This document shows, piece by piece, positions 8,921-33,032 of a stretch of DNA of 64,000 nt. The position numbers and the translations under genes were made by a program. This DNA is from Haloplanus salinarum (GTDB taxonomy: Archaea; Halobacteriota; Halobacteria; Halobacteriales; Haloferacaceae). How positions within the stretch are numbered: position 1 is the first letter of the stretch; the number at the start of each line of letters is the position of its first letter. The notes under the pieces were generated by a model that did not search any database, was not told the DNA's origin, and saw only the letters and a program-made list of their open reading frames with translations. The stretch spans positions 1,426,001 to 1,490,000 of the forward strand of contig NZ_CP101823.1 in the NCBI RefSeq assembly GCF_024498175.1, in the 5' to 3' direction.

Positions 8921-8958
8921 ATTTTACATCCCCGTCTCCGAGATAGGGACGAAGTCGC

Positions 8959-9780
8959 ATGACTGAGACATACGACCTCCTCGATACGCAGTCGGGAAAC
9001 GCCGTCGTCGTCGCCCTGGACCACGGCCTCAACATGGGCTCGGTCGATGGGTTCGAACGGCCCGAGTCGACGCTCCGGGCCGTCCTGGCGGGCGACCCGG
9101 ACGGGGTCCTCGTCGGTCCGCACTTCGCCCGACGGTTCGCCGACACGCTCGAATCGTCGGACGTCGACGTCCTGCTCACCGCCGACGCGGCGCTGTTCTC
9201 GGCACGCCCCGGCGCCCGGACGGGCGAGGACATCTGGACGCCGGCCTTCTCGACGTCGTTCCTCCGGGAGTTCGACCCGAAGGGGATCAAGGTCGCCCTC
9301 GTGTTCGGCCGCGACGACCCACGGGTGTTCGAACGCAACGTCGCCCACGTCTGTGAACTGGCGGAGCAACTCCACGACACGGGTATCCCCCTCGTCGTCG
9401 AACCGGTGATGTGGGGCCGTCACGTCCCGGACGACCGGAGTACCGATCCGGAGCTGGTCGGGAACGCGAGCCGCCTCGCGTGGGAGTACGGCGCCGACGT
9501 GCTCAAGATACCGTACACCGGCGACCGGGAGACGTTCGAACCCATCGTCGACGCCTCACCCGTGCCGGTCACCGTCCTCGGTGGTCCCTCCTCGGGCCGT
9601 ACCGAGTCGATGCTGGAAACGGTGTCCGAGGCCGTCGCGGCGGGCGCCCGTGGGCCCATCATCGGCCGGTCCATCTGGCAGACGCCCGACCCGGAGCGGG
9701 TCGTCGCCGCGCTCGGTGCCGTCGTCCATCGGAACGCCGATCCGGCGGACGCCTGGCAGGACGCCGCGGACGGCGTATAG
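8959..9780 (+). CDS. Class I DeoC/FbaB-family aldolase
   Basis: TIM-barrel aldolase of 273 residues. It has the signature VVALDHGLNMG near residues 17-27, and GADVLKIPYTGD with Lys183 as the likely Schiff-base lysine. The C-terminal phosphate-binding elements are VLGGPSSG and GARGPIIGRSIWQ. The family includes archaeal fructose-bisphosphate aldolase, LsrF and LacD-like enzymes. Being just downstream of a sugar kinase, it likely splits a phosphorylated ketose to glycerone phosphate and an aldehyde. It converges on the iclR-family gene. Confidence 0.85.
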   Translation: MTETYDLLDTQSGNAVVVALDHGLNMGSVDGFERPESTLRAVLAGDPDGVLVGPHFARRFADTLESSDVDVLLTADAALFSARPGARTGEDIWTPAFSTSFLREFDPKGIKVALVFGRDDPRVFERNVAHVCELAEQLHDTGIPLVVEPVMWGRHVPDDRSTDPELVGNASRLAWEYGADVLKIPYTGDRETFEPIVDASPVPVTVLGGPSSGRTESMLETVSEAVAAGARGPIIGRSIWQTPDPERVVAALGAVVHRNADPADAWQDAADGV

Positions 9781-13114: not shown

Positions 13115-14305
13115 CTACGTGTTGACGACGCCGTCGCCGTCGCCGTGGGTCACCTGTCGTGCCTCGGCGGGGTCGGCAAGGTTGCGCGACTCGACCGTCA
13201 TCCCCTCCTCGTCGAAGATGTACAGCGCCTCGCGCGGGAACCCGAAGTGAACGCTGGTCCCGGACTCGGGTTCGAACCCGGGTGAGACGCGCGCGGTCCA
13301 CGTCCGGGAGCCCACGTCGAAATACAGGAGGTTATCGCTCCCGAGCGGTTCGACCACGTCGACGGTCGTCGTGTGGTGTTGGCCCTCGAACGCCGCTGCC
13401 TCGGCGCGCAGCACCACGTCCTCCGGCCGGACGCCGACGGTTACCCGGTCGCCCGCCTCGACCGGGTGGTCCGCGTTCGCGTCCGCCGTCGCGTCCAGGT
13501 CGTACGTGAAGGCATCGCCCGTGACGGACTCCAAGAGCGTCCGCCCGTCGCGACGGACGACTTCCGCCTCGACGGTGTTCATCGACGGGCTGCCGATGAA
13601 GCCGGCGACGAACAGGTTGGTGGGGTGGTTGTACACGTCGTTCGGTTCGCCGATCTGCTGGAGGGCGCCGTCGTTCATCACTGCGATGCGGTCGCCCATC
13701 GTCATCGCCTCCTCCTGATCGTGCGTGACGTAGATGGAGGTGACGCCCAGCTGCTCCTGGATCCGGGAGATCTCCGTCCGCATCTGCTTGCGAAGCTTCG
13801 CGTCGAGGTTCGAGAGCGGTTCGTCGAACAGGAACGCCTCCGGGTCGCGGACGATGGCCCGCCCGAGGGCGACGCGCTGCTGTTGGCCGCCGGACAGCGA
13901 CTTGGGTTTCTTCTCGAGGAGTTCGCCGATCTCCAGCAGGTCGGCCACGTCCTCGACCCGTTCCTCGATGTCGGCGTCCGAGAGGTCGGTGGAGAGCCGG
14001 AGTCCGAAGCCGATGTTCTCCCGCACGTTCATGTGGGGGTACAGGGCGTAGTTCTGAAACACCATCGCGATATCCCGCTCGCGCGGTTCGAGGCCGTTCA
14101 CGCGAGTCGTCCCGATCGAGATGTCGCCGTCCGTCGGGTCCTCGAGGCCCGCGATCATGCGGAGCGTCGTCGATTTCCCACACCCCGACGGGCCGACGAG
14201 GACGAGGAACTCCTCGTCCTCGATTTCGAGAGACAGGTCGTTGACCGCGACGATGCTACCGTTGTTGAACGTCTTGCTCACGTGATTGAGTGCGATTTGT
14301 GCCAT
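13115..14305 (-). CDS. CUT1 ABC transporter ATPase (MsmX/UgpC type)
   Basis: A protein of 396 residues. Walker A GPSGCGKST is near 38, the Q-loop is VFQNYALYPHM, the signature is LSGGQQQR, Walker B is EAFLFDEPLSNLD and the switch is THDQEEA. It has the C-terminal OB-like MalK/UgpC regulatory extension (about 240-380). It energises sugar uptake with the two permeases and the lipoprotein encoded just upstream on the same strand. In haloarchaea one ATPase may serve several importers. Confidence 0.95.
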   Translation of the reverse strand: MAQIALNHVSKTFNNGSIVAVNDLSLEIEDEEFLVLVGPSGCGKSTTLRMIAGLEDPTDGDISIGTTRVNGLEPRERDIAMVFQNYALYPHMNVRENIGFGLRLSTDLSDADIEERVEDVADLLEIGELLEKKPKSLSGGQQQRVALGRAIVRDPEAFLFDEPLSNLDAKLRKQMRTEISRIQEQLGVTSIYVTHDQEEAMTMGDRIAVMNDGALQQIGEPNDVYNHPTNLFVAGFIGSPSMNTVEAEVVRRDGRTLLESVTGDAFTYDLDATADANADHPVEAGDRVTVGVRPEDVVLRAEAAAFEGQHHTTTVDVVEPLGSDNLLYFDVGSRTWTARVSPGFEPESGTSVHFGFPREALYIFDEEGMTVESRNLADPAEARQVTHGDGDGVVNT

Positions 14306-14372
14306 GGTTACTGTCGAGAATACGGTTGTCGGTGGTCGATGCGAGAGGCGGGGCCACCGCGAGGCGAACGGG

Positions 14373-15221
14373 TCATTGCTTGACCGCTCCCATCGTCAGG
14401 CCGCTCACGAGATATCGCTTGACGATGACGCCGAAGGTGACCATCGGCAGGAGGATGACGACGCCGGTCGCCATCACCCGCCCCCAGAGCGTCCCGGTCT
14501 GGGTGACCAGTTGCGACGCCGCGACGGGCATCGTCTGCGTGGCGTTGCTGGTGAAGATCAGCGCGAAGATGAAGTCGTTCCACGAGAAGACGATGGCGAT
14601 GATGGCGGTGGCGCCCATCCCCGGCAACACGAGCGGGAGGGACACCTTCCGGAACGCCTCCCACTTGGTGGCGCCGTCGATACGCGCCGCTTCCTCCAAG
14701 GCCTCGGGCACCTCGTCGAAAAAGGAGCGCATCAACCAGATGGCAAAGGGGAGGTTGAACGTCGTGTGGGCGATGATGAGCCCGATGTGGGTGTTCAGCA
14801 GGTTCAGCGCGTTGTAGATGTAAAAGAGCGGGATGACGACGACGACGATGGGCGCCATCCGGGTGCTGATGATCCAGAACGCCAGATGTTTCTTGCCCTG
14901 GAGGTCGAGCCGCGAGAGACCGTACCCCCCGACGGTTCCCAGTCCCACGGAGAGGACGGCCGTGCCGAGCGCGACGATGACGCTGTTGACGAGGAAGGGC
15001 GTCACCGGGTTCGCGCCCAGGAACATCTCCTGGTAATACCGAAGCGTCGGGTCGAAGAATATCGTCGGCGGGAACTCGAACATCGACCGCCGGATCTTCA
15101 GCGACGAGAGCGCCATCCAGGCCAGCGGGAGCAGCGTCCAGACGGAGATCAACGCCAGCGCCACGACCGGTCCGTATCGGCGGACCGGTTTCGGGAGTGC
15201 CGTTCGTGTGGAACTACTCAT
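14373..15221 (-). CDS. CUT1 ABC sugar permease, MalG type
   Basis: A protein of 282 residues with six predicted membrane segments. The EAA loop EALEEAARIDGATKWEAFRKVSLPLVLPG contacts the ATPase. ATG 15221 (MSSSTRTALPKP) overlaps the stop of the other permease by 8 bases, which fits coupled translation. It carries the inner-membrane domain of the importer. Confidence 0.93.
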   Translation of the reverse strand: MSSSTRTALPKPVRRYGPVVALALISVWTLLPLAWMALSSLKIRRSMFEFPPTIFFDPTLRYYQEMFLGANPVTPFLVNSVIVALGTAVLSVGLGTVGGYGLSRLDLQGKKHLAFWIISTRMAPIVVVVIPLFYIYNALNLLNTHIGLIIAHTTFNLPFAIWLMRSFFDEVPEALEEAARIDGATKWEAFRKVSLPLVLPGMGATAIIAIVFSWNDFIFALIFTSNATQTMPVAASQLVTQTGTLWGRVMATGVVILLPMVTFGVIVKRYLVSGLTMGAVKQ

Positions 15222-16182
15222 CGTCGCCGGCACCTCCCATGATCGTCTCGACGAACGCAAGGCCCATGAGGATGGTGACGATCAGCAAGACGATGCCGGT
15301 AGCGGAGCCGTACCCGAGGTTGTAAAACCGGAGCGCCTGCTCGTAGACGTAGAGCCCGACGATCTTGGTCGAACTCGACGGACCGCCACCGGTCGTGATG
15401 AACACCTTCGCGAAGTATCGCATCAGGTCCATCGAGCGCAACAGGAGGGCGATGGCGATGGCGGGTCGCAACAGCGGGAGCGTCACGTGCCGGAACTGCG
15501 TGATGCCGGTCGCGCCGTCGACGCGCGCCGCCTCGTAGAGGTGTTCGGGGATGCTCTTCAACCGCGCCAGCACGATCAGGACGATCAGCGGCGTCCACTG
15601 CCACGTGTCCATCAGGATCACCGCGGCCATGGCGCTGGTCGAGTCCCCGAGAATCGGCTGGTTGACGAACAGTCCGACCTGGTTCAGCAGGTACGTGTAC
15701 AGTCCGAACGAGGGATCCAGGAGGAACTGCCATATCAACCCCACGACCACGGGCGCGATCATCATCGGCATGATGATGATACTCGTGAACACGTTCTCGC
15801 CTTTGATGACCCGGTGGAGCATCACCGAGATGAAGATCCCCAGCCCGAGTTGCAGGCCGAGCGACCCACCGACGTAGATGGCCGTCACCTTCCACGAGTT
15901 CCAGAACCCGCCGTCCGCAGCCATCTCCGCGAAGTTCCCGAGGCCGATGAAGATCTGCTCCTCGACGGGGGTGAAGTTGACCTCGTGGAAGGACAGGTAG
16001 ATCATTACGACCAGCGGGATGATGCTGAGTACCGCGAGGGTGATGATGCTCGGTAGGAGCAACAGCATCTCGAACGAGACGGGAAGCGACTCCAGGATCG
16101 AGCCGCCGGACTCGTCCGGCTCCTCTCCGACGTACGCGTTCTGGACGCCGGAGACCTCCATCGCCTGTTTGTGTTGGGCCAT
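15214..16182 (-). CDS. CUT1 ABC sugar permease, MalF type
   Basis: A protein of 322 residues. A hydrophilic N-terminus of about 35 residues precedes six membrane segments, beginning FEMLLLLPSIITLAVLSIIPLVV. The EAA motif is EHLYEAARVDGATGITQFRHVTLPLLRP. The C-terminal end GAGDDE overlaps the next permease. It is the second membrane subunit, 81 bases after the binding-protein gene. Confidence 0.93.
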   Translation of the reverse strand: MAQHKQAMEVSGVQNAYVGEEPDESGGSILESLPVSFEMLLLLPSIITLAVLSIIPLVVMIYLSFHEVNFTPVEEQIFIGLGNFAEMAADGGFWNSWKVTAIYVGGSLGLQLGLGIFISVMLHRVIKGENVFTSIIIMPMMIAPVVVGLIWQFLLDPSFGLYTYLLNQVGLFVNQPILGDSTSAMAAVILMDTWQWTPLIVLIVLARLKSIPEHLYEAARVDGATGITQFRHVTLPLLRPAIAIALLLRSMDLMRYFAKVFITTGGGPSSSTKIVGLYVYEQALRFYNLGYGSATGIVLLIVTILMGLAFVETIMGGAGDDE

Positions 16183-16263
16183 TATCGTATCTCCTCCAGG
16201 TGGTGTGTAATCTAATGAAAAAAATACCGACTTGAGTGTTTTGGTCGTCCCGATGCCGGCCGA

Positions 16264-17721
16264 CTACAGGATGTTGCTGAAGCCGTCGGCGCAGTCCTGC
16301 ATCGTCGCCTCCGCCGACTGGTCGCCGGAGACCATCGCGGAGCCCTCGGAGTAGATGACTTCCTCCAGCTGGAGCCAGTCGGGATGGTGGGGCCGCTGAC
16401 CGACGTTGTCGAGGTCCCAGCCCTCCAGGATGGGGGGCACGACGTTGGGCATCGGGCTCTCGGAGGCGGGCATCTGGCTCGCCTCCTCGACCTCGCTCCG
16501 GTCGTAGACCGACTGCCGGGTCGGCGTCCCGCCGGCCTGCTTGAGGAGTTCGGTCTGAACCTCCTCGGAGGTCGCCCACTCGATGAACATCCACGCGGCC
16601 TTCTTCTTCTCCGGGCTGATGTGTCGGTTGATGCCGACGCTACTCCCGCCGTAGTGAGCCTGGACGTTCCGATTCTCGGCCGGCCCCGTGGGGGCGAGCG
16701 TCCACCGGACCGAGTCGGCCACGTCGCTCGCCTCGGGGTCGGCGAACATGCCGTTGAACTCGTGCCACTCCGGGGCCATCGCCAGGTTGCCGCCGGCGAA
16801 GGCCTCGGCGACCCCCGACCAGTTCCAGGTCGTACTCCCGGGGGCGGCGACCTCGGTCACCAGTTCCTGGTAGAACTCGGCGGCCTCGATGGAGGCGTCG
16901 TCGGTGAACCCGGCCGAGATGTCGTCGGGAAGGATGGGATCCTTGCCGTCGAACCCCTCCAGTTGCGTCCCGCCGAAGGACCACTGGATCATCTCGAACT
17001 CGTTGGCCAGCGACTGGTGCTGTTTGGCCATGTGGCCCGTCCCGTACTCGACCACGTCGTCCGGGACGTTCTCGTTGATCCACTTCGCGACCTCCATGTA
17101 CTGCGACCAGGTCATGTCGGGGTTCGGTTCGGCTTCGAACCCGAGGTCGCTGGTGGCCTGGTCGCCGTACTCGTCGAAGACGTCGCCGCGGTAGGCGAGC
17201 AGGATGGTCGGGCAGTCGTAGGGGAGTCCCCTGATGGTCCCGTCGCCCTCGTACTCCGAGCACGCGATGCGGTGAATCTCGATGTGGTCCTCGTAGTCGT
17301 AGTCGTTGTCCTCGATATACGCGTTGAGCGGTTCGAGGTCGGTGTAGTACGGCGCCCCGATGTTGTACGGGTCGACGTACATCGCGTCGTAGTTGCCCGC
17401 CTCGCTGGTGAGGTCGCTCGCGACCGTCTCCGTGTAGTTCAGGAGGGGCTGGAGCGTGTACTCCACCTCGATGCCCGTCTCCTCGGTGAACCGGTCCGTG
17501 ATGGACCGCAGCGCCTTCGTCGGCGGGGTGTTCTCCCCGACGTACTGGATACTGTCGGCCGGTTCGACGTCCTCGCCGGGCGGTGTGCTTTCGCTGCCAC
17601 CGTCGCCACCGTCGCCACCGCCACCGCCGCCACCGCCCGAACAGCCCGCGAGGGCCGTGACGGTCGCCGCGGCACCTGTCGCTCGAATAAACCGACGCCT
17701 GTCAATGGTCTCCTGTGACAT
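16264..17721 (-). CDS. CUT1 extracellular sugar-binding lipoprotein (Tat)
   Basis: A protein of 485 residues. The Tat motif RRRF at residues 8-11 and lipobox LAGC with Cys27 show folded export and lipid anchoring, followed by a Gly-rich linker and the SBP_bac_1 fold. ATG 17721 is chosen because the two upstream in-frame ATGs fall in or before the AT-rich promoter (AATAATTATGTATG around 17745-17757). It captures the sugar for the two permeases and the ATPase downstream. Its gene diverges from an FGGY kinase. Confidence 0.92.
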   Translation of the reverse strand: MSQETIDRRRFIRATGAAATVTALAGCSGGGGGGGGDGGDGGSESTPPGEDVEPADSIQYVGENTPPTKALRSITDRFTEETGIEVEYTLQPLLNYTETVASDLTSEAGNYDAMYVDPYNIGAPYYTDLEPLNAYIEDNDYDYEDHIEIHRIACSEYEGDGTIRGLPYDCPTILLAYRGDVFDEYGDQATSDLGFEAEPNPDMTWSQYMEVAKWINENVPDDVVEYGTGHMAKQHQSLANEFEMIQWSFGGTQLEGFDGKDPILPDDISAGFTDDASIEAAEFYQELVTEVAAPGSTTWNWSGVAEAFAGGNLAMAPEWHEFNGMFADPEASDVADSVRWTLAPTGPAENRNVQAHYGGSSVGINRHISPEKKKAAWMFIEWATSEEVQTELLKQAGGTPTRQSVYDRSEVEEASQMPASESPMPNVVPPILEGWDLDNVGQRPHHPDWLQLEEVIYSEGSAMVSGDQSAEATMQDCADGFSNIL

Positions 17722-17831
17722 GTCTTTGCACAGTTTACCATCATCATACATAATTATTTTCCTAACCGAACGGGCGTCCGGCGTGGCCGTCGGCGTGAGG
17801 CTTATCTGCACCCTCTGTCCTATCTCGTAGC
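17722..17831. promoter_or_regulatory. Divergent promoter between importer operon and FGGY kinase
   Basis: The minus-strand promoter has the AT-rich AAATAATTATGTATG at about 17745-17759, some 27-35 bases before ATG 17721. The plus-strand promoter has GCTTATCT at about 17801-17808, 27 bases before ATG 17832. A regulator bound between them could switch transport and phosphorylation together. Confidence 0.55.
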
Positions 17832-19304
17832 ATGACAAACCATGTCGCGATCGACGTGGGGTCCAACGGCGGCACCATCTGGGTCGGGCGACGCGACGGC
17901 GACAGCCTCGACGTCGGGGAGGTGTATCGGTTCGACAACGGCCCCGTCGAGCGAGACGGCCGGTACGTCTGGGCCATCGACCAACTCCTCGAGGAAATCG
18001 AGGCGGGCCTCCTCGCGGCCGAACGGGAGTACGGTTCCCTCTCGACCCTCGCCGTCGAGACGACCGGCCTCGATTTCACGTTCTTCCGCGATGGCGAACC
18101 GATGCGTGATCCGTACTTCTACCGCGATCCGTCGGTCACGTCGACGCTCGACGACCTCCTCGAACGCGCCGGGAAACGCGAGATATTCGAGCGGACGGGG
18201 ATCAACCACTGGAACGTTCCCAACTCGCTGTGGCAGTATCACTACCAGGCCCACGCCTCGCCGGAGGTCGTCCGATCGGCGGATACGCTGGTGATGCTCC
18301 CGCAGGTACTCAGCCACGCGATGGGGGGCAGCGTCAACCCCGACAAATCGATCGCTTCGACGACACAGATGTTCGACATCGAGTCCGAGACGTGGGCGAC
18401 GGACCTCCTCGAGACGCTCGACCTCCGGACCGACCTCCTGCCGGACCTCGAGGAACCCGGCACGAAGGTGGGAACGCTCGACGGGTCGTTCGCGCCCGGC
18501 CTCGACAGTCGCCCGGATATCCTCCTGACGGCCACCCACGACACGGCGTGTGCCGTCGCGGCGACGCCGTTCGGTGCCGGCGACCGGACCTTCCTGAGCA
18601 CCGGTTCGTGGTTCATCGTCGGCATCGAACTCGACGCCCCACGCGTGACCGACGAGGCCTTCGCCGTCGAGGCCTCCAACGAGTACGGTGCCGAGGGGAC
18701 GACCCGGTTCCTGAAGGACGTCACCGGTTTCAACCTCCTCGAATACGCCCGCGAGAAGTGGCGCGAGGAGGGGAGACCCCACGAGTACGACGCCATCCTC
18801 TCGGAGATGGCCGAGGTCGACCCCTTCGGTCCGCTCATCGATCCGGACGCCGACCTGTTCATGGCCGGAACGCTGGAGGGCGACATCGTCGAGAAGATCG
18901 GCCAGTACTGCCGGGAGACCGGACAGGCCGTCCCGGAGGGGGTCGGAGAGATAACCCGGTGTCTGCTCGAAAGCCTCGCGGCGAAGACGGCGTACGCCCT
19001 CTCGCAGCTCCAAGGGGCCGCCGACGTCGAGAGCGACCAGCTGAACGTCGTCGGCGGCGGGGTCAGAAACGAGCCGTTCCTCCGGATGCTGGCGGGAGCG
19101 ACCGGCCTTCCGGTCGTCGCCGGCCCCGTCGAGGCGACGTCGATCGGGAACCTCCTCGTACAGATGAACGCCACCGACGCGATCGCGGACCTCGCGGAGG
19201 GGCGGCGGCTGATCCGCGAGACGGCCGACCTCACGGCGTACGACCCCGAGGACCGCGACGCGTGGGCCGAGGCCGTCGATCGGATGGCGACGCTCGTCGA
19301 CTGA
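17832..19304 (+). CDS. FGGY-family carbohydrate kinase, rhamnulokinase-like
   Basis: A protein of 490 residues. The N-terminal ATPase phosphate loop is VAIDVGSNGGTIWVG, a region GEVYRFDNGPVERDGRYVWAID strongly recalls RhaB-type kinases, and VETTGLDFTFF holds the likely catalytic Asp neighbourhood. The C-terminal nucleotide-binding motif is LNVVGGGVRNEPFLRMLAGATGLPV. It probably phosphorylates a ketose such as a rhamnulose- or fuculose-like sugar before the class II aldolase encoded two genes downstream. Assignment beyond the FGGY family is inference. Confidence 0.88.
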   Translation: MTNHVAIDVGSNGGTIWVGRRDGDSLDVGEVYRFDNGPVERDGRYVWAIDQLLEEIEAGLLAAEREYGSLSTLAVETTGLDFTFFRDGEPMRDPYFYRDPSVTSTLDDLLERAGKREIFERTGINHWNVPNSLWQYHYQAHASPEVVRSADTLVMLPQVLSHAMGGSVNPDKSIASTTQMFDIESETWATDLLETLDLRTDLLPDLEEPGTKVGTLDGSFAPGLDSRPDILLTATHDTACAVAATPFGAGDRTFLSTGSWFIVGIELDAPRVTDEAFAVEASNEYGAEGTTRFLKDVTGFNLLEYAREKWREEGRPHEYDAILSEMAEVDPFGPLIDPDADLFMAGTLEGDIVEKIGQYCRETGQAVPEGVGEITRCLLESLAAKTAYALSQLQGAADVESDQLNVVGGGVRNEPFLRMLAGATGLPVVAGPVEATSIGNLLVQMNATDAIADLAEGRRLIRETADLTAYDPEDRDAWAEAVDRMATLVD

Positions 19305-19342: not shown

Positions 19343-20353
19343 ATGGACTGGGTATCCCTCGGACGGACGGGGACGATGGTCACGGAACTGCCCTTCGGCA
19401 CGTGGCGGTTCGGCCGCGAGACGGACGAAGGATCGGTCGAGATCGACGAGACGCGGGCGTACGAACTCCTCGATACCTACGAGGCTCACGGTGGTCGGTT
19501 CATCGATACCGCGGACATGTACGGCGGGGGAACGAGCGAGACGTGGATCGGCAACTGGCTCGCCGAACGCGACCGGGAGGACTTCGTCGTCGCCTCGAAG
19601 ATATACTGGCCGACCCGTGACGATCCGAACGGACGGGGACTGGGTCGGAAGCATCTCCGGCGACAGATCGACGCGATCCTCGACCGCCTGGGGACGGACT
19701 ACGTGGACCTGCTGTACGTCCACCGCTGGGACGACGAAACGCCCGTCGAGGAGTTCATGCGGACGCTCGACGGCTTCGTCGACTCCGGCCGGGTCAACCA
19801 CCTCGGCGCCTCGACGCTCTGGCCCAACGCCTGGAAGGTCGTCCGCGCGAACGCCATCGCGGACACACGAGGCTACGAACCGTTCACCGTCGTCCAGCCC
19901 CGGTACAACCTCGTCGATCGGGAGATCGAGGGGCCGTTCCTGGAGATGTGCGAGAGCGAGGACTTCGGCGTCGTGCCGTGGAGCCCACTCGGTGAGGGGT
20001 TCCTGACCGGCAAGTACGACCGGGACGACGTCTCGAACGTCGACTCCCGGGCGGCCGAGGACGACAGCTTCGAATCGAAGTACCTCACCGACGAAAACTT
20101 CGCCGTCCTCGACACCCTCCGGGAGGTAGCGTCCGAGGTCGACGCCACTCCCGCACAGGTCGCGCTCGCGTGGCTCCTGCACCACGACCAGGTCGTGGGA
20201 CCGATCGTCGGCGCCCGAACCGTCGACCAACTGGAGGAGAACCTCGGCGCCGCCGACATCTCCCTCTCCGACGACCAGTTCGACCGTCTCGCCGCCGCCA
20301 AGTCCGGCCCGTTCCCGGATATCGTCGATTCGCCGGCCCGGGGCGACCGGTAA
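19343..20353 (+). CDS. Aldo/keto reductase
   Basis: A protein of 336 residues with a TIM-barrel AKR fold. The tetrad is Asp in FIDTADMYG, Tyr in DMYGGG, Lys in VVASKIYW and His in LLYVHRWD. The C-terminal VGPIVGARTVDQLEENL contributes NADPH binding. It lies 38 bases after the FGGY kinase, so the two probably share a transcript. It could reduce lactaldehyde or oxidise an aldose; the context allows either. Confidence 0.9.
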   Translation: MDWVSLGRTGTMVTELPFGTWRFGRETDEGSVEIDETRAYELLDTYEAHGGRFIDTADMYGGGTSETWIGNWLAERDREDFVVASKIYWPTRDDPNGRGLGRKHLRRQIDAILDRLGTDYVDLLYVHRWDDETPVEEFMRTLDGFVDSGRVNHLGASTLWPNAWKVVRANAIADTRGYEPFTVVQPRYNLVDREIEGPFLEMCESEDFGVVPWSPLGEGFLTGKYDRDDVSNVDSRAAEDDSFESKYLTDENFAVLDTLREVASEVDATPAQVALAWLLHHDQVVGPIVGARTVDQLEENLGAADISLSDDQFDRLAAAKSGPFPDIVDSPARGDR

Positions 20354-20471: not shown

Positions 20472-21809
20472 ATGTCACAACAGTCCAGTCTCGACGCAAA
20501 GCGACGCGCGATAAGTGTGTTCGGGCGACGGATGCTCGAACAGGGTCTCACGAAAGGTACCGGCGGGAACATCAGCGCCCGCGAGGGGGATACGATCGCT
20601 ATCAGCCCCTCCGGGATGCCGTACGACGAGATCGATCCCGAGGACGTCCCGACGGTCGACCTACAGGGCGACCACGTCTCGGGGGACCGCGTCCCCTCCA
20701 GCGAACGCCGGATGCACGCGACGATCCTGCGCGAACGCGAGGACGTGGGTGCCGTCGTTCACACCCACTCGCCGTACGCGACGACCTTCGCCAGCCTCGA
20801 CGAGCCCGTTCGCCCGTCGCATTACCTCATCGCCTTCGTCGGCGACGAGATCCCCGTCTCGGGGTACGCCACCTACGGAACCGCCGACCTCGCCGAGTTG
20901 GCCATCGATGCCCTCGGCGACGAGTACGACGCCTGCCTGTTGCGAAACCACGGCACCATCGCCGTCGGCGACACCGTCGAGGCGGCGTTCGAGCGCGCAC
21001 TGATGGTGGAGTACTGCGCGCGGATCCACTACCAGGCGCGGAACATCGGCGAACCGACGCTGCTCCCCGACGAGGAGATCGGTCGCCTCCGTGGGATGTT
21101 CGAGAGCTACGGCCAGAGCAGCCAGGACGACGTCGACCCCGTCGCTCCCGCCCCCGATGCCGACGAGTTGGCCGACGGGCGCGAAGCGGTCTCCACCCTC
21201 GGCGTCGAGCTGCTCGAACAGGGTCTCACGAAGGGCACCGGCGGCAACGTCAGCGCCCGCGACGGCGACAGGGTGGCGATCAACCCCTCGGGAGTCCCCT
21301 ACGGCGAGGTCACCCCCGAGACGGTCCCGATCGTCGACTTGGAGGGCGAACAGGTCACGGGCGAACTCGCGGCGTCGAGCGAGACGCCGATGCATACGAT
21401 GATCTACCGCGAGCGCGACGACGTCGGTGGGATCGTCCACACCCACTCGCCGTACGCGACGACCTTCGCCAGCCTCGACGAACCCATCCCGGCGTCGCAC
21501 TATCTCATCGCCTTCGCGGGCGACGAGGTGCCCGTCGCGGGCTACGACCGTCCGGGAACCGCGGAACTCGGCCGCCTCGCGGTCGAGACGCTCGGCGACG
21601 AGTACGACGCCTGCCTGTTGCGAAACCACGGGACAATCGCCGTCGGCGAGTCCCCCGAGGCGGCCTTCGAGACGTCGCTGATGGTGGAGTACTGTGCACG
21701 GATCCACTACCAGGCACGGAACATCGGCGAACCGACGCTGCTCCCCGACGAGGAGATAGACACCCTCACCCGCCGGTTCCGGAACTACGGACAGACGAGC
21801 GGCAACTGA
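20472..21809 (+). CDS. Tandem-fused class II aldolase (two FucA-like domains)
   Basis: A protein of 445 residues made of two homologous class II aldolase/adducin domains, about 15-215 and 240-440, offset by 226 residues. Domain 1 has zinc ligands His97, His99 and His160 with Glu78; domain 2 has His323, His325 and His386 with Glu304, so both look catalytic. The KGTGGN phosphate-binding motif appears in both. Blocks of DNA are nearly identical between the copies, for example around 20760-20810 and 21440-21490. FucA is a single domain that forms a tetramer; a fused dimer is unusual. It would cleave a ketose 1-phosphate or decarboxylate a related acid. Confidence 0.9.
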   Translation: MSQQSSLDAKRRAISVFGRRMLEQGLTKGTGGNISAREGDTIAISPSGMPYDEIDPEDVPTVDLQGDHVSGDRVPSSERRMHATILREREDVGAVVHTHSPYATTFASLDEPVRPSHYLIAFVGDEIPVSGYATYGTADLAELAIDALGDEYDACLLRNHGTIAVGDTVEAAFERALMVEYCARIHYQARNIGEPTLLPDEEIGRLRGMFESYGQSSQDDVDPVAPAPDADELADGREAVSTLGVELLEQGLTKGTGGNVSARDGDRVAINPSGVPYGEVTPETVPIVDLEGEQVTGELAASSETPMHTMIYRERDDVGGIVHTHSPYATTFASLDEPIPASHYLIAFAGDEVPVAGYDRPGTAELGRLAVETLGDEYDACLLRNHGTIAVGESPEAAFETSLMVEYCARIHYQARNIGEPTLLPDEEIDTLTRRFRNYGQTSGN

Positions 21810-21813
21810 CAGG

Positions 21814-22779
21814 TCACGTCCCGTCGCCCCCGACCGACCGGACGTCGGTCCGCGTCGGAAGGGCGGCCATCGCGCCCGTCGCCGTCGTCGACGCCGCCGC
21901 GACGGCGTTGGCGAAGGACAGCGTCGCGGACAGGTCACGCGTCCCCTCGGCCAGCGACGCGAGCATCCCGGCGGTGAAGGCGTCGCCCGCCCCGGTCGTG
22001 TCCACGGCGTCGACGTCGTATCCGTCGTGGGTCGCGGTCCCCGCCGCGAACGGGGCGCCCGACCGTGCCAGCGCGGACGCCCCCGCTTCGCCGAGGGTGA
22101 GGAAGGCAGTCGACGGTCCCCGCTCGCAAAGCGTGGCGGCCAACGTCTCGGGGTCGGCCGTCGTATCGACGAACGAGAGCGTCCGCAGGTCCTCCCGCGC
22201 CGCCGTCACCACGTCGACGTCCGCGAGGAGGTCGGTCACGACCCGCTCGAACGCACCGTCGGTCCACAGTTCCGGCCGGAAGTTGAGGTCGAGGACGACA
22301 GTCCGTCCGGCCGCGTGCGCCCGTTCGACCAAATCCACCGTCGCGGTCCGGGACGGCTCGCTCCCCAGGGTGACGCTCCCGACGTAGACGGCGTCGACGG
22401 CCCGTACGGTCTCCTCGGGGACGCCGTCGGGTTCGAGGCGGGTGTCGGCGGTCCCGTCCCGGTAGAAGGAAAAGGCCGCCTCCCCCGCCCCGTCGTCGAC
22501 GAACGCGAGCGTCGTCTTCGCCGTCGGATCCCGTTCGACGAACCGGAGCGGGACGCCGTGGTCCTCGAGCGTTTCGACGAGGAAGTCGCCGAACGGGTCG
22601 GTGCCAACGCGGGTCCAGAACCAGGGCGCGTAACCGAGCCGTGCCAACCCGACGGCGACGTTGGCCGGGGCGCCGCCGGCCCGTCTGTCGAGCGTTTCGG
22701 CGTCCGCGAGCGATCCGCCTCCACGAGGCAGGAAGTCGACGAGCGTTTCCCCAGCGACCAGGAGTCCGGGATCGGTCAT
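21814..22779 (-). CDS. PfkB-family sugar kinase
   Basis: A protein of 321 residues. It has the N-terminal GGAPANVAVGLARLG motif, and DTTGAGDAFTAGMLASL as the C-terminal PfkB signature with the catalytic Asp. This matches fructokinase or 2-keto-3-deoxygluconate kinase lengths. ATG 22779 is chosen over an upstream start 42 codons earlier because a TATA-like GACTTTTGCG lies 27 bases before it. It converges with the fused aldolase, and follows the TrmB-type regulator on the same strand after a 122-base gap. Confidence 0.88.
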   Translation of the reverse strand: MTDPGLLVAGETLVDFLPRGGGSLADAETLDRRAGGAPANVAVGLARLGYAPWFWTRVGTDPFGDFLVETLEDHGVPLRFVERDPTAKTTLAFVDDGAGEAAFSFYRDGTADTRLEPDGVPEETVRAVDAVYVGSVTLGSEPSRTATVDLVERAHAAGRTVVLDLNFRPELWTDGAFERVVTDLLADVDVVTAAREDLRTLSFVDTTADPETLAATLCERGPSTAFLTLGEAGASALARSGAPFAAGTATHDGYDVDAVDTTGAGDAFTAGMLASLAEGTRDLSATLSFANAVAAASTTATGAMAALPTRTDVRSVGGDGT

Positions 22780-22901
22780 GCCGGCCGTACGAGCGCGAGC
22801 GCAAAAGTCTGCCTCCGTCGACGCGCCCCCCCCGTGCGAGGACGCCAGCCGAGGTTCGTCGATCGGTCGCCCGGAGGGGGCGCGCCGCGACGGACGATCG
22901 A

Positions 22902-23966
22902 TCACCAGTCGGACCAGTCGTCGAAGGGCGTCCGGCCGACGTGTATCTCCTCGGCCTCGACGTCCTCGAGGGCTGCCGCACGGCCGCCGACTTCGATCAG
23001 TTCGTCCCCGGCGTCGACGGTCAACGCCGCACGCTCGTATCCGCCTTCGAGTGTCACCTCCACCACGCGCCCGGTGACCCTCCGATCGTCACCGGTTACG
23101 ACGTCTCGTCCCCAGACGGCCGCGTATAAGTCGCCGCCGTCCGCGGCCTGCAGATCCTCGACACACCGGCGGATCGTTCCGTACTGCCGGGGGAACTCCG
23201 TGGTCGTGTTCGCCGTCGCGAGCGGCCGCCCCGACGTCCAGATGACCGTTTCGAGGAACGCGGAGACGAGAAACCCGAGATCCGAGCGGTTGAAGATGAT
23301 TCCGTACCGGTCGCCGTCGTCGGCTAGGGCTTCGCGGGTCGTGTACACCGATCGCTCCCCGTCCGCGACGGCGACGATGGGCGTCGTCACACCCCGGCGC
23401 TCGCGGGTCGTCGACGCGAGTTCGGTGTAGGGAAACTCCGACGGGTCCGGCACGTCCGACGCGGGGGAGACGAGGAGTTCGGTGGCGATACCGGCCTCGC
23501 GTTGCTCGCGGAGGGTCGTCTCGAACTGCCCGACGAGTTCCGGCGACAGCGACGCTAAGAGTTCGTACTCCGCGGATTCGAGGATCTCGGAGAGATACCG
23601 GAGGATGGTCGATTTGGACTTGACCAGGCTGATCGCCTCCGTATCCCGTGCCGGTTCGGTGTACTGGCGCTGCAGGGCCGAGATGAGGTCGTCGAGCGCC
23701 GACCGAAACCCGGCTAGGGACTCCGTCGGGTCGACGGCAACGACCTGCATCGGCCGGGTCTCGTGAATCTCGACGAGCCCGTCCTCGGCCAGTGCCCGGG
23801 CGGTGTCGTAGACGCGGGATTGGGGGACGTCCGTCAGGTCGGCGATCTCCCCCGCCGAGAGCTTCCCGTGTTCCAGCACCGCCAAGTAGGTCTCGATTTC
23901 GTACTCGCCGAAATCGAAGCGGTCGTCGAGGCTGGTCAGCGACGACCGGAGTTCGTCCGATGGCAT
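22902..23966 (-). CDS. TrmB-family sugar-sensing regulator
   Basis: A protein of 354 residues. The N-terminal winged helix (about 15-80) has YLAVLEHGKLSAGEIADLTDVPQSRVYDTARALAEDGLVEI. A coiled segment and a TrmB C-terminal ligand domain follow, including the region RYGIIFNRSDLGFLV. TrmB proteins bind sugars and repress or activate uptake and glycolytic genes. The likely targets are the PfkB kinase and the divergent aldehyde dehydrogenase 131 bases away. ATG 23966 gives the normal family N-terminus; earlier codons lack family similarity. Confidence 0.9.
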   Translation of the reverse strand: MPSDELRSSLTSLDDRFDFGEYEIETYLAVLEHGKLSAGEIADLTDVPQSRVYDTARALAEDGLVEIHETRPMQVVAVDPTESLAGFRSALDDLISALQRQYTEPARDTEAISLVKSKSTILRYLSEILESAEYELLASLSPELVGQFETTLREQREAGIATELLVSPASDVPDPSEFPYTELASTTRERRGVTTPIVAVADGERSVYTTREALADDGDRYGIIFNRSDLGFLVSAFLETVIWTSGRPLATANTTTEFPRQYGTIRRCVEDLQAADGGDLYAAVWGRDVVTGDDRRVTGRVVEVTLEGGYERAALTVDAGDELIEVGGRAAALEDVEAEEIHVGRTPFDDWSDW

Positions 23967-24097
23967 ACCCGCCCGGTTCGACGCCCTCGCATAAGAGACT
24001 ATGTCCCACACGCCGGCCGTCCGCGTTCGATGCATCTCGAGAAATTGGTTTTCACATCAGAGTAAATTTTATTTCACTGGGTCTGGTAGGTGGTGGC

Positions 24098-25531
24098 ATG
24101 ACAGCGACGACGACGAGCTACGACCACGCGCTCTACATCGACGGCGACTGGGTCGACGGGGGAGGGTCTCTCACCGTCGACGACTTGGCCGACGGTGGGA
24201 CGTTCGCTCGGGTGGCCGCCGCCACCGAGCGAGAGGCGGAGCGGGCCCTGGCCGCCGCCCAACGGGCCCAAGAGCCGATGGCCGACGCCACCGTGGTCGA
24301 ACGGGCCCGCTGGCTCGAGGCCATCGCGGAAGCGATCGAAGCGGAGTCCGAGACGTTGACGCAGACTATCGTCCACGAGGCGGGCAAACCCGTTGCTAGC
24401 GCCCGGAGCGAGGTGGCGGCGGCCGCCGAGCGGTTCCGGCGGGCCGTCGCCGAGGCACGTGACCTCCAGGGCGAGTATCTGGAGGGGACGACGGCCGGCC
24501 ACGAGGGGTGGAACGCCGTCGTTCAGCCACGTCCCGTCGGCACCGTCGCCTGTATCGCCCCCTACAACTACCCCCTGGCGACGGTGGCGCTCCAGGTGGC
24601 GCCGGCGCTCGCGGCGGGCAACAGCGTCGTCCTCAAGCCCTCCTCGAAGACGCCGGTCTGCTCGGCGATACTGGCTCGCCTCGTCCACGAGGTGACGGAC
24701 GTGCCGGACGGTGGCTTCAACGTCGTCCCCGGCCGATCGTCGACCATCGGGGACTACATCGCGGGCGACGACAGGGTCGACGCCATCGCCATGACGGGGT
24801 CGTCGGACGCCGGAAAGCACATCGCGCGCGAGAGCGGCCTCGTGAGGCTCCACATGGAACTCGGGGGGAACGCCCCGGCCATCGTCTTCCCGGACGCCGA
24901 CCTGGCTGCCACCGCGGACGCCTGTGCGAAGGGGGCGTTCAAGTTCGCCGGGCAGCGTTGCTCCGCCGTCGGACGGATACTCGCACACGAGGCGGTCCAC
25001 GACGACCTGGTCGACCGTCTCGTTGCTCGCCTCGACGAGTGGCAACCCGGTCCGCTGTTCGACGAGTCCACCGCCGTCGGCCCGCTCATCTCGGAGTCGC
25101 AAGCCGAGTGGGTCGCGGAGCTCGTCGACGACGCGGTCGACCGGGGCGCGACCCTCGTCGCCGGCGGGGACCGCGACGGTCGGTGGTTCGATCCGACCGT
25201 CCTGTCGAACGTCCCGAAGGACGCCCGCATCCTGCACGAAGAACAGTTCGGGCCCGTCGCCGCCATCGCCGAGGTGGAGTCGGAGGCCGAGGCGCTTGCC
25301 CTCGCGAACGCGGACGACCTCGGACTCGACGCCGCGGTGTTCACCGACGACCACGACAGGGCCATGCGGGTTGCCGAGGCCGTCGAGGCCGGCGCAGTCC
25401 GCATCAACGGGGCGCCGAGTCACGGCCTCGGCGACATCCCCTTCGGCGGTGTCGGCGACTCCGGAATCGGCCGTGAAGGTCTCGGTCACACCGTCGAGGA
25501 GTTCGTCACCAGCAAGAGCATCGTCCTGTAA
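24098..25531 (+). CDS. NAD(P)-dependent aldehyde dehydrogenase
   Basis: A protein of 477 residues of the ALDH superfamily. The cofactor region is MTGSSDAGKHI, catalytic Glu is about residue 254 (HMELGGNAP) and catalytic Cys about 288 (FAGQRCSAVG); the 34-residue spacing is standard. It resembles lactaldehyde, glycolaldehyde or non-phosphorylating glyceraldehyde dehydrogenases. A TATA-like AAATTTTATTTC at 24064-24075 precedes ATG 24098 by the leaderless distance. It fits oxidation of the aldehyde released by the aldolases of this island. Confidence 0.92.
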   Translation: MTATTTSYDHALYIDGDWVDGGGSLTVDDLADGGTFARVAAATEREAERALAAAQRAQEPMADATVVERARWLEAIAEAIEAESETLTQTIVHEAGKPVASARSEVAAAAERFRRAVAEARDLQGEYLEGTTAGHEGWNAVVQPRPVGTVACIAPYNYPLATVALQVAPALAAGNSVVLKPSSKTPVCSAILARLVHEVTDVPDGGFNVVPGRSSTIGDYIAGDDRVDAIAMTGSSDAGKHIARESGLVRLHMELGGNAPAIVFPDADLAATADACAKGAFKFAGQRCSAVGRILAHEAVHDDLVDRLVARLDEWQPGPLFDESTAVGPLISESQAEWVAELVDDAVDRGATLVAGGDRDGRWFDPTVLSNVPKDARILHEEQFGPVAAIAEVESEAEALALANADDLGLDAAVFTDDHDRAMRVAEAVEAGAVRINGAPSHGLGDIPFGGVGDSGIGREGLGHTVEEFVTSKSIVL

Positions 25532-28583: not shown

Positions 28584-30472
28584 AGTTGAGACTACAGTGG
28601 GTTTAGCGGGGCTGTGATGCGTGGTTTCGGGCGAATTTTCGAGACGAAGCTGGTTCGGATCTACTCTCGATAGTCTTCTCATGTCGTACTACCAACTAGA
28701 CCAGTGAATTTTCAAGATCTCCGACAGCGTTGCCACTCAGGAATCCGGATTGCCCCGGACAGAGTATCTCTCTATCCGATTCCGGTCTCCGTCTTCAGCA
28801 GCGTGAGCGTATTGTCGGCCGTCACAATGGGTGAGTGTTCGTACTCACCGGTCAACTCGACTTGGACGAGCAAATCGACCGCTCGCCAAATCGAGTACAA
28901 GAGACACGCGAATGCGAAGTAGAAGAATCGGAGCCCGAAATTCTTCGACGTCGTCGCCGCTATGAACCGCTTAATCGACCTGTAGCCGCTCTCGATCTCC
29001 CACCGAAACCCGTACTCTGTGAGGTGCCCGCTCCCGCAATTCGTCATAAACACCGAGTACTGCCGGTGGTCGTCGTGCTCAGAGTCTTCTTTCCGACGGT
29101 AGATCAGCGTCGTCTCGTGCCACTCGTTCTTGCCGAGGTGGAGCTTCCGGTCGGTCTCGTACCGATCCTGGTCCCGCTGGAGCAATCGCTTCGCCTGGGC
29201 TTTCTCGCTGGTCTGCATCCGCTTCGGAACAACGTAGGAGAGCCCGCGCTGGCTGATCATCTCCAAGATGTGCTGGCTATCGAACTCCCGGTCCATCAGC
29301 ACGTTATCGACGTGGACGAGCTCTTCAGCCGAATCGAGCAAGTCCTCGACGATCTCCTTCCGACTCTCGCCTTTTCGTACCGGGCGGGCATCGAGGACGA
29401 GTGGGACAGCGTTCCCGACCAGCTGGACTGTCGCCCACTGATAGGCGTACTCGTCAGTGTTCTCTTTCGTTCCGATGATCTCGTCCTCATGGCCGGTGCG
29501 GTCGCCCGTGAAGGGATCGGCCTCGGTGATGTCGATGGTGACAATACCCGCCCGGAAGAACTCCTCTGTCTCCGCGAGTTCGTTGATAAGTTGCTGGACT
29601 GCCTGTCGGTACATCTCGCGAATCTGCTCGATAGGGAGATCACGAATCTGGTCGCGATGACCGTGTCCGAGTGGTGTTCGATCACGCGTCGACTCGTGGA
29701 TGAAGCTCCGAGCGCCCTCGTTGGCGGCCAAGTTCTCACGGAGCCCCAAGTAGGTCTGTAAGCCCCAGTAGGCGTTCTCGGGAATCTCATAGCCCTCGCC
29801 ACGATTGAGCGAGAACGCGGGAAAACAACGCGACTGACGTGCTTGGTAACCGTCCCTGCCTTATCGAGGAGGGCCTGATCGTCAAGGTCCGATTCAGTAG
29901 CGTCGTGGCCTCGATCCTGCAGGTTTCGTTCTGGTTTGCGTGGCACAGCGACATCCGCATTTTGGGCTTTGATGAGGATCGTTCGAGCCGCCGTCTCCAC
30001 TGTCTCACGGAGGGCAGTGGTGAACCGCTTGTGCCAACTCCGCCAAAATGTCGACGGGTCGGGAACCGATTTCAAATCAAGGTTCTGATGTACTTTTGGC
30101 GAGGTTTCGAGGTATTCGACAAGGGCCGTTTCGTGGGTCCACCCGTGGAGTTCTTTCAGCAGGAATAGCCGAAAGAGAGTCTCCATTTCGCAGCGTGTGG
30201 AAGTTGAGTAACTGTCGTGTCCATCGAAATCAAAGTAAGCCAACGGGAGTGCGTAGACGAACTGATCAACCGAGTTGTAAGCGACGTGTTCGAACCACGA
30301 TTCCGAGACAACCCGAACGTCTGATTCCAGCCCAGCGAGTGAACTCCGATCGTATAGCGGCGTCGAATTGTACACTGGCCACTCCGTGCACGACCATCGA
30401 GCGATCCGTCGAAAAACAGTTTGCCGAGACTCCTGGGTCGGTGCCACTGAAAGAGCTTGACTACTGGACTAC
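28584..30472 (-). mobile_element. Haloarchaeal IS copy (DDE transposase, IS4/ISH-like), degenerate
   Basis: The end downstream of the transposase begins AGTTGAGACTACAGTGGG at 28584 and matches the corresponding end of the second copy at about 57630-57710 (shared CCGAAACCACGCAT and GTAGTCTCAACT). The end upstream of the transposase is uncertain; GAGCTTGACTACTGGACTACC at about 30451-30471 is a candidate. The transposase inside is frameshifted, so this copy is probably immobile unless helped. I could not name the IS subgroup. Confidence 0.65.
28772..30447 (-). pseudogene. Transposase, frameshifted
   Basis: DDE-type transposase of about 480 codons. The N-terminal part starts MAPTQESRQTVFRRIARWS at 30447 and runs in frame to about 29825. 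There, compared with the other copy in this window, one base is missing in the ACGCGGGAAAACAACGCG region, and the rest continues in another frame to a stop at 28772. The catalytic core includes GIVTIDITE, NVLMDREFDSQHIL and RWEIESGYRSIKRF, carrying likely D, D and E. Full function would need frameshifting. Confidence 0.82.
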
Positions 30473-30659: not shown

Positions 30660-33032
30660 ATGGTTGAGCACACCCGAACGCTGGACCTCAAGATCGCCTT
30701 CGCTATCGGCTTAGGGACGATGATCGCCGCTGGTATTTTCTCCCTCTCCGGGACTGCTGTCGCGGCGATCGGCTCCAGTGCAGTCATCGCGTTCGTCATC
30801 GCAGCCATCGTCGCCGGCATCACCGCCGCCGGCTACTCCGAGTTTGCCTCGATTTACTCTGAGAACGGTGGTGGCTACCTGTTCTCCTCGCGTACGTTCG
30901 AGAACGACACACTCGTCTATGCCATCGGCGCGATGCTGTTCCTCGGATACACTGGCACGACGGCGTTCTATCTCGCGACGATGGACGAGTGGTTCTTCCG
31001 GTTCGTGCTCCCCGAACCACTTCACGTCTTACCCCACGGGACGACAGGAGTACTCGCTGCCCTCCTGCTGGGCACACTGAATGCCCGGGGGACCGAGGAA
31101 AGCGGCACCTTCCAGCTGCTCGTGACCGGTGCGAAGGTGGCGGTGCTGTTTGCGTTCATCGGCGGCGCGTTGTCGTTCCGAGGGCCGTCGACGGCGGTGG
31201 GCACGTTTGCGACGAACTTCTCGACGGACCTAGTCGGCATCGTCACCATCGCCGCGCTAGCGTTCATCACGTTCTTTGGCTTCTCCGCAATCGCCGCCAG
31301 CGCCGGCGAGATCATCGAACCGAAGCGCACCGTCCCGCGGGCGATTGCCGCCTCCATCATCACCGTCACCGTGCTGTATGCGCTGGTGATCGTCGCGATG
31401 GTCAACTCGCCGGTGCCCGCGGAGGTCATCGCCCGCGAGGGCGAAACCGCTATGGGGCGTGTCGCTGCCGGCTTCCTCGGCCCCATCGGGCGGTCGCTCA
31501 TCGTCGCCGGCGCCATCTTCAGTATGGTCAGCGCTTCGAACGCGTCGATTCTCGCTGCCAGCGGAATCGGCTCGCTGATGGGCCGGCAGGGACAGGCCCC
31601 ACGGCCGTTCTCGCGAATTCATCCGCAGTACAACACCCCGTTCTGGAGTGTCGCCACTGCGACCGGCACCATCGTCCTCCTGATCGTCACATTCATCATG
31701 CTATTCCCGGTTGAAGGGGGCATCCTCCCGTTTCAGGTCACCGTTCCCGCTCCCATAGTTGGCTCGCTAACGCTCACTGAGCTGGGACTGACGACGCTGA
31801 CCGGGTTCGCGACGCTGAACCTCCTGTTGCCGCTCTCGGTCGTCAACCTCGCACTCATCTATTCGCGCCGGCGTTACCCGGACATCAAGCGCGGCTTCCG
31901 GGTTCCCGGGGTGCCTGTCGTGCCGGTGGTGGGCATTCTCGCGAACCTCGCGCTGATCTACAACCTTCCACTGAAGGGTGTCGTGGTCGGTGTCTTCCTC
32001 GTCGGTGTGTTGCTGGTAGCGTACTTGGCGTGGGGCGGCGCGCCGGCTGTCGACGAACTATTCGAACAGGTCGTCGAACCACAACCAGCGACTACCGAGG
32101 GAACAGGTGGTGGTAGCGATGCCGAGGAGAGCGAGGGAGACCGATATCAGGTGCTCGTCGCGGTCGCCCGACCGGACAGGGCCGCGCGTTACATCAAGCT
32201 CGCTGATACCTTGGGGAAGCTGCAACACGACGATCCCCACATCCGTGTGCTGAACGTCACACAGATCCCGGAGCAGACGCCGTCGGAGGCAGTCCGTGAG
32301 ACCGCGGAGGGGCGCGTCACTCGAATCCAGGAACTACTGTCGGAACAGCAACTCGAAGCTGACTACACCGTCGAGGGGCACATCTGCCAGAACATCGCCT
32401 TCGACATCCTGCAGACTGCCCGAGAGGGTGACGTCGATCAGATTCTTATGGGATATCCCGAGGAGCACACCGACGTCGCCGAGACAATCGAATACAAAAC
32501 ACCCTGTGGCGTGATGTTCGTTCGCGGGTTCACCGACGAGACGGACACCTCGGTCGTCAACGTCGGCGCGGGTGGTGGCCCCCACCACAAGGCGTTGCTG
32601 CCGATGGTTGAGCAGCTCGGGCGGAATGGCGCAGAACTCCACGTCATTAGTGTCGATCCCAACGGTGGCGGCGGCCGTGCGGAGTCCGCAGACGCGACCG
32701 TTGCTGGACTCTCCGACACACCCGAAGTACAGGTCCACAACGTGCAGGCACCGACCGTGGCGGAGGGATTGGTCGAGACGGCTGCTTCGAACGGGGGCAT
32801 CCTCGTTATCGGTGCGACCCGGACCCGCAGACTCAGACGCTGGGTATTCGGGAGTACGCCCGACCGTGTCATCGACCTCGCAGATGGGGCCGGTGTCCCC
32901 GTCATCGTCTATGCCGGCGCTCGCGGCGTCCAGGGGCCGATCGAGGATTACCTCTACCCTATCTACCGCTCACTGACTGGTCGCCAGCGTACAGAGGCAT
33001 CCGCTGACGGATCCTCGATGGAGGCCGACTAA
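30660..33032 (+). CDS. APC-family amino-acid permease fused to two UspA domains
   Basis: A protein of 790 residues. The first about 460 residues hold some 12 membrane segments of the amino acid-polyamine-organocation family, starting GLGTMIAAGIFSLSGTAVAAIG, which matches the substrate-binding GxG region in helix 1. Two universal-stress domains follow at about 494-620 and 625-755; the second ends VIGATRTRRLRRWVFGSTPDRVIDLADGAGVPVIVY, an ATP-binding-like Usp motif. The architecture is known in haloarchaea. Usp domains likely gate transport by nucleotide or stress signals. An Lrp/TrkA-C regulator gene is nearby. Confidence 0.92.
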   Translation: MVEHTRTLDLKIAFAIGLGTMIAAGIFSLSGTAVAAIGSSAVIAFVIAAIVAGITAAGYSEFASIYSENGGGYLFSSRTFENDTLVYAIGAMLFLGYTGTTAFYLATMDEWFFRFVLPEPLHVLPHGTTGVLAALLLGTLNARGTEESGTFQLLVTGAKVAVLFAFIGGALSFRGPSTAVGTFATNFSTDLVGIVTIAALAFITFFGFSAIAASAGEIIEPKRTVPRAIAASIITVTVLYALVIVAMVNSPVPAEVIAREGETAMGRVAAGFLGPIGRSLIVAGAIFSMVSASNASILAASGIGSLMGRQGQAPRPFSRIHPQYNTPFWSVATATGTIVLLIVTFIMLFPVEGGILPFQVTVPAPIVGSLTLTELGLTTLTGFATLNLLLPLSVVNLALIYSRRRYPDIKRGFRVPGVPVVPVVGILANLALIYNLPLKGVVVGVFLVGVLLVAYLAWGGAPAVDELFEQVVEPQPATTEGTGGGSDAEESEGDRYQVLVAVARPDRAARYIKLADTLGKLQHDDPHIRVLNVTQIPEQTPSEAVRETAEGRVTRIQELLSEQQLEADYTVEGHICQNIAFDILQTAREGDVDQILMGYPEEHTDVAETIEYKTPCGVMFVRGFTDETDTSVVNVGAGGGPHHKALLPMVEQLGRNGAELHVISVDPNGGGGRAESADATVAGLSDTPEVQVHNVQAPTVAEGLVETAASNGGILVIGATRTRRLRRWVFGSTPDRVIDLADGAGVPVIVYAGARGVQGPIEDYLYPIYRSLTGRQRTEASADGSSMEAD

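Follow-up and report, generated by a model that had tools for sequence, protein, structure and literature searches.

Aldolases of the FucA type, which are DHAP-dependent, form C4 homotetramers with their active sites between subunits, and FucA itself cleaves L-fuculose-1-phosphate. According to PMC11841055, Glu73 and Tyr113' are essential in FucA, and the latter is supplied by the neighbouring subunit. DrdA, the 5-deoxyribulose-1-phosphate aldolase of Bacillus thuringiensis (6btd/6btg), is described in PMC6079011 as a single-domain, DHAP-forming enzyme whose tetramer arises by crystal symmetry and whose pathway uses drdK and drdI. A further relative, the haloarchaeal ribulose-1-phosphate aldolase (Halxa_2272; NF053831), shares both family and organism class with the gene described here, and PMC9700705 ties it to genomes that have R15P isomerase and lack Rubisco. 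We analysed a window, that is, the whole 64,000-nt stretch of Haloplanus salinarum DNA presented above, in which one gene joins two such domains:

20472..21809, + strand: two-domain class II aldolase gene, 445 aa (open reading frame list, Pfam, whole-genome search)
20487..21128, + strand: N domain, residues 6-219, N-type, with Tyr at the FucA Phe131 position (alignment, tree)
21129..21164, + strand: linker between the domain boundaries, residues 220-231 (model pLDDT below 50 at residues 212-230)
21165..21806, + strand: C domain, residues 232-445, C-type, with Pro at the FucA Phe131 position (alignment, tree)

The open reading frame has exactly the start, stop and length given in an earlier sequence-only reading of this DNA. 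PF00596 (Aldolase_II) matches the whole protein in two stretches, with 363.5 bits against a gathering score of 22.2, and also matches each half alone (185.2 and 183.2 bits); these two stretches are the only PF00596 matches that a whole-genome search found in the 3.45-Mb single-contig genome. The halves are identical at 145/207 residues (70%) without gaps (E 1e-110), and the DNA compared with itself gives one 300-nt block of 78% identity at a spacing of 678. The sequence-only reading had proposed a tandem fusion of two complete domains, both retaining the zinc-binding histidines and the acidic residue, with very high DNA identity between them in places. All of this holds, the last in the form of exact runs of 44, 41 and 41 nt. 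Alignment with E. coli FucA identifies His97, His99 and His160 of the N half and His323, His325 and His386 of the C half as metal ligands; the catalytic Glu73 corresponds to Glu78 and Glu304, and Tyr113 to Tyr118 and Tyr344, which gives both halves the three metal histidines, the catalytic Glu and the partner Tyr of a FucA-type enzyme. The equivalents of FucA His92, His94, His155, Glu73 and Tyr113 are kept in 26/26 halves of the 13 fusions described below. Because FucA needs both Glu73 and Tyr113' and both are kept in both halves, each site in a ring of fused chains would have the residues it needs. It is also plausible that the fusion fixes neighbouring active sites, as had been suggested, since FucA sites borrow Tyr113' from the neighbouring subunit (PMC11841055).

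The single-chain AlphaFold2 model of the window protein (pLDDT 84.5, pTM 0.75) falls below a pLDDT of 50 only at residues 212-230, in the linker, and in the last six residues. The Halohasta litorea fusion, of the type B defined below, gave a pLDDT of 81.2 and a lower pTM (0.63), and because of the latter the predicted packing of the domains should not be regarded as firm. Structures of DrdA and FucA match the domains with Z 24-30, rmsd 1.1-1.7 and 32-46% identity. Those of RhaD rank below them (Z about 17, 17% identity), a rank that speaks against RhaD and shows no function. DrdA is the closest solved structure (45-46% identity, Z 29.8), and its DHAP-forming reaction, as given in PMC6079011, resembles the one predicted for the fusion. 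FucA (E. coli 1fua; also 4c24, from S. pneumoniae according to the same paper) has the fold, the metal ligands, Glu73, Tyr113 and the phosphate-site residues in common with the fusion halves, but is a single domain with 33-43% identity to them. The haloarchaeal single genes of the N and C clades, named 'class II aldolase/adducin family protein' in plasmid records, have about 55-72% identity to a half, but are unfused.

The fusion is a recurrent haloarchaeal variant of a known enzyme family. Matches at E 1e-20 occur in 206/391 genomes of the class, and at least 10 of the 391 carry in-frame two-domain genes (six full-length matches and four split matches in one open frame). A family search of 170 genomes added one further fusion (G399), which is probably a MAG already in the set, its halves having been removed as identical, and a scan of named genomes gave 33 loci with eight fusions (Halomarina halobia, Haloplanus ruber, Halobellus rarus, Haloferax massiliensis, Halohasta litorea, Halohasta salina and two MAGs). 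After duplicate removal there are 13 distinct fusion genes, all haloarchaeal; the search for other two-domain members, which the sequence-only reading had proposed, thus yielded 12 distinct loci besides the window gene. In a sample of the phylum, 40/392 genomes match at E 1e-40, all from the same order or nearer, and among the 30 of 188 plasmid-record matches listed there are one fusion (Halomarina) and 29 single genes. A literature search, with subscription journals mostly outside its reach, found nothing on a haloarchaeal two-domain class II aldolase. One further locus, L099 (G030:C3:453400-455000, match 627-1082), retains just the C-terminal 152 residues of a C half of the fusion type, 89% identical to the Halobellus rarus fusion; the N half is absent from the 1.6 kb examined, and the locus is probably the remnant of a fusion gene.

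The very similar patches had been taken as a sign of recent duplication or gene conversion. A 91-domain tree places the N half of the window gene in one clade (the N clade, 95/86) and the C half in another (the C clade, 94/82). The N clade also holds N-type single-domain enzymes, the C clade holds C-type singles, among them the ones found in congeners, and an earlier 43-row tree splits the two halves the same way. AU tests, run on 42 of the 91 tree rows with L009_2560_S (a shortened duplicate of the Halohasta litorea C half) and L099_S (a fragment) left out, reject one clade for the four Haloplanus halves (p-AU 0.0006) and one clade for all C halves (p 0.0017); they do not reject one clade for all N halves (p 0.34) or, at the 5% level, one for the six Haloplanus and Halomarina halves (p 0.056). 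Recent duplication is ruled out, because each half has its place in a distinct, old clade of single-domain enzymes.

Seven of the 13 fusions, which we call type A, have halves from different clades (window, Haloplanus ruber, Halomarina, G322, G132, G219 and Halobellus rarus), and five, type B, have two N-type halves (Haloferax massiliensis and four Halohasta-type loci). The fusion of MAG L056 (2656-4128, + strand) resembles neither. Type A domain boundaries are separated by 9-12 residues, those of type B by 19 and those of MAG L056 by 16. Since a single N clade is not rejected and a single C clade is, the fusions may have arisen either twice, the C halves of type B being N-type, or once, with replacement of the C half.

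Gene conversion fared better than duplication. The window gene contains three tracts that are identical in its two halves:

20760..20803, + strand: 44-nt tract, equal to 21438-21481, coding for metal ligands His97/His99 (His323/His325)
20913..20953, + strand: 41-nt tract, equal to 21591-21631, reaching metal ligand His160 (His386)
21039..21079, + strand: 41-nt tract, equal to 21717-21757

Within one gene, the N and C halves share exact runs as long as 134 nt in Halomarina and, for the window gene, 44 nt, against at most 39 nt in 140 cross-lineage N/C pairs and at most 38 nt in 140 same-half pairs. With eight lineage representatives, the true pairing of halves has the highest run score of all 40,320 pairings, and only 10 of 40,320 pairings score as high as the true one for silent codons at conserved sites. 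At the 89 conserved columns considered, the codons of two halves are identical in 68% of cases within a gene and in 57% across lineages. By exact runs and silent codons, G132 shows no excess, and Halobellus and Halohasta show little or none. Trees of the core tracts, whose borders were chosen after the alignment had been seen, group the Haloplanus halves together (97/93) and likewise the Halomarina halves (100/99), whereas trees of the remaining segments reject these groupings (p 0.0007 and p 0.012, respectively). The gene is thus a mosaic in which the halves group by species in the core and by half elsewhere. These sequence patterns clearly point to within-gene conversion in several lineages, and repeated events confined to the metal-binding core would fit the very similar patches. 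Gene conversion has been described in Haloferax volcanii, according to abstracts in the literature.

Some positions nevertheless stay different. Counting only columns with at most two residues per side, and using the numbering of the window's N half, six columns have non-overlapping N and C residues in 7/7 type A fusions: 45 (Ser/Asn), 75 (Pro/Ala), 80 (Arg/Pro), 135 (Tyr/Pro), 141 (Ala/Gly) and 145 (Ile or Leu/Val). The catalytic Glu78 lies between two of these, 75 and 80. The counterpart of E. coli FucA Phe131, treated as a binding-site residue in a docking study (PMC11274987), is position 135, occupied by Tyr135 in the N half and Pro361 in the C half. Type B fusions have Tyr there in both halves, and the MAG L056 fusion has the reverse order, Pro in N and Tyr in C. 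The kept differences may mark sites of slightly different kinds.

The gene lies among genes for sugar uptake and metabolism:

13115..17838, − strand: sugar ABC importer with ATPase, two permease-type open reading frames and solute-binding protein (ATPase and binding protein by profile scan, permeases by eye from sequence and position)
17832..19304, + strand: FGGY sugar kinase, nearest rhamnulokinase (profile scan, 320.7 bits against a cut-off of 527.95)
19343..20353, + strand: aldo/keto reductase between the FGGY kinase and the aldolase, in the same direction (profile scan)
21814..22785, − strand: PfkB-family sugar kinase (profile scan)
22902..24035, − strand: TrmB-type sugar-sensing regulator (over the NCBIfam cut-off)
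24101..25531, + strand: aldehyde dehydrogenase (profile scan; best NCBIfam match lactaldehyde dehydrogenase, 403.6 bits, below the cut-off of 650)

An FGGY kinase relative occurs within 10 kb of the fusion in 13/13 loci, the case of L056 being unsure (short contig, overlap with the fusion open reading frame as drawn). A GlpA-like glycerol-3-phosphate dehydrogenase gene is found close to the fusion in 5/5 type B loci (with an overlap of the reported open reading frame in the case of Haloferax massiliensis), and each of the five type A loci outside Haloplanus has a 2-hydroxyacid dehydrogenase upstream. Such a neighbourhood would suit an enzyme that splits a ketose-1-phosphate into DHAP and a short aldehyde. 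The classical L-rhamnose and L-fucose routes were rejected: relatives of RhaA and FucI-C were not found in the genome, and controls such as E. coli match. Two matches to the R15P isomerase family TIGR00511 both score under that family's cut-off. Elsewhere in the window, 7784-9780 (+ strand) encodes a prokaryotic ketohexokinase (PF25270, 597 bits) followed by a DhnA-type aldolase, adjoining a galactonate dehydratase and a PdxA-like gene, and is perhaps a second ketose-phosphate route in the same region. The window also holds a TnpB-type RNA-guided nuclease open reading frame (2742-4214, + strand; 110.4 bits against a cut-off of 100), an amino acid permease whose C-terminal end matches universal stress protein (30660-33032, + strand), and two overlapping open reading frames in different frames that, by eye, resemble one frameshifted transposase (28772-30447, − strand).

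Several other explanations could be offered for these observations. An assembly artefact that duplicated or collapsed one gene, an objection the sequence-only reading raised against itself, is practically inconceivable: the genome is a single contig, the version in Haloplanus ruber is 97% identical to the window gene, and independent genomes of other genera carry the same fusion. The patches might instead be alike through shared purifying selection and codon bias, without any conversion, as they are conserved motifs and both halves are under one genome-wide codon bias. We find this quite improbable, given the 134-nt exact run in Halomarina and the presence of ATTVGEP in both Halomarina halves against ARNIGEP in both Haloplanus halves. 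Moreover, when other single paralogues were compared with the fusion halves of their own genome, the longest shared run was 26 nt or less in 5/6 genome/single sets. The sixth set, with the single gene adjoining the Halohasta litorea fusion, gave 42 nt against the N half, so exchange with other genes can also occur.

As for function, the fusion might be a ribulose-1-phosphate aldolase, being the sole PF00596 gene of its genome and reaching, as a whole protein, 456.8 bits with NF053831 (cut-off 300). This identity is highly improbable. The halves score 234.5 and 228.8 bits, below the cut-off, whereas 8/8 single-domain outgroup enzymes pass it with 316-380 bits, and NF053831 members form a separate clade (100/100). 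PRK06833 (L-fuculose-phosphate aldolase, cut-off 264) behaves alike, with 449.8 bits for the whole protein and 234.2 and 220.3 for the halves; neither half alone reaches the NCBIfam cut-off of any named aldolase, and the whole protein passes these two because two sub-threshold domains are summed. The genome also has a Rubisco-family gene, against the association drawn in PMC9700705. Summed sub-threshold domains can thus pass whole-protein HMM cut-offs, a warning for annotation. Alternatively, one half could be catalytic while the other mainly supports it structurally or regulates it, a division of labour seen in many fused paralogues and one that would suit the six consistent type A differences, among them 75 and 80 beside the catalytic Glu and 135 at the FucA Phe131 position. 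We consider this rather unlikely, since all tested catalytic residues are kept in every half and conversion appears to keep the metal-binding core alike in several lineages.

The fusion is probably a FucA-type, DHAP-dependent ketose-1-phosphate aldolase, in which two fused chains would make a four-domain ring with two slightly different types of site. Old paralogous N-type and C-type subunits would have been joined by a flexible linker, and a pair of such chains would assemble as the four-domain ring usual for the family, in which N and C domains alternate. Each site would take its Glu from one domain and its Tyr from the neighbour, and all four sites should work because both halves supply both residues. 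The nearby FGGY kinase would make the ketose-1-phosphate, which the ring would split into DHAP and a short aldehyde, the latter being cleared by the neighbouring aldo/keto reductase and aldehyde dehydrogenase. Intragenic conversion would keep the two metal-binding cores similar, and differences would persist at the FucA Phe131 position and at a few sites close to the catalytic Glu.

A bolder proposal, which we put forward tentatively and regard as possible but doubtful, is that the gene encodes a natural hetero-dimeric fused aldolase, whose ring has two kinds of site (Tyr or Pro, together with the changes beside Glu) for two aldehydes or two ketose phosphates, with conversion renewing the core and selection keeping the specificity positions apart. 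If so, MAG L056, with its reversed Pro/Tyr order, would have reached such a mixed ring by another route. Gene conversion also appears to act between the domains of one gene and yet to spare a few positions. On the main reading, nature would have remade a homotetramer as a ring of two chains with two types of site, so that the worth of covalent linkage and of site asymmetry could be tested in one enzyme family.
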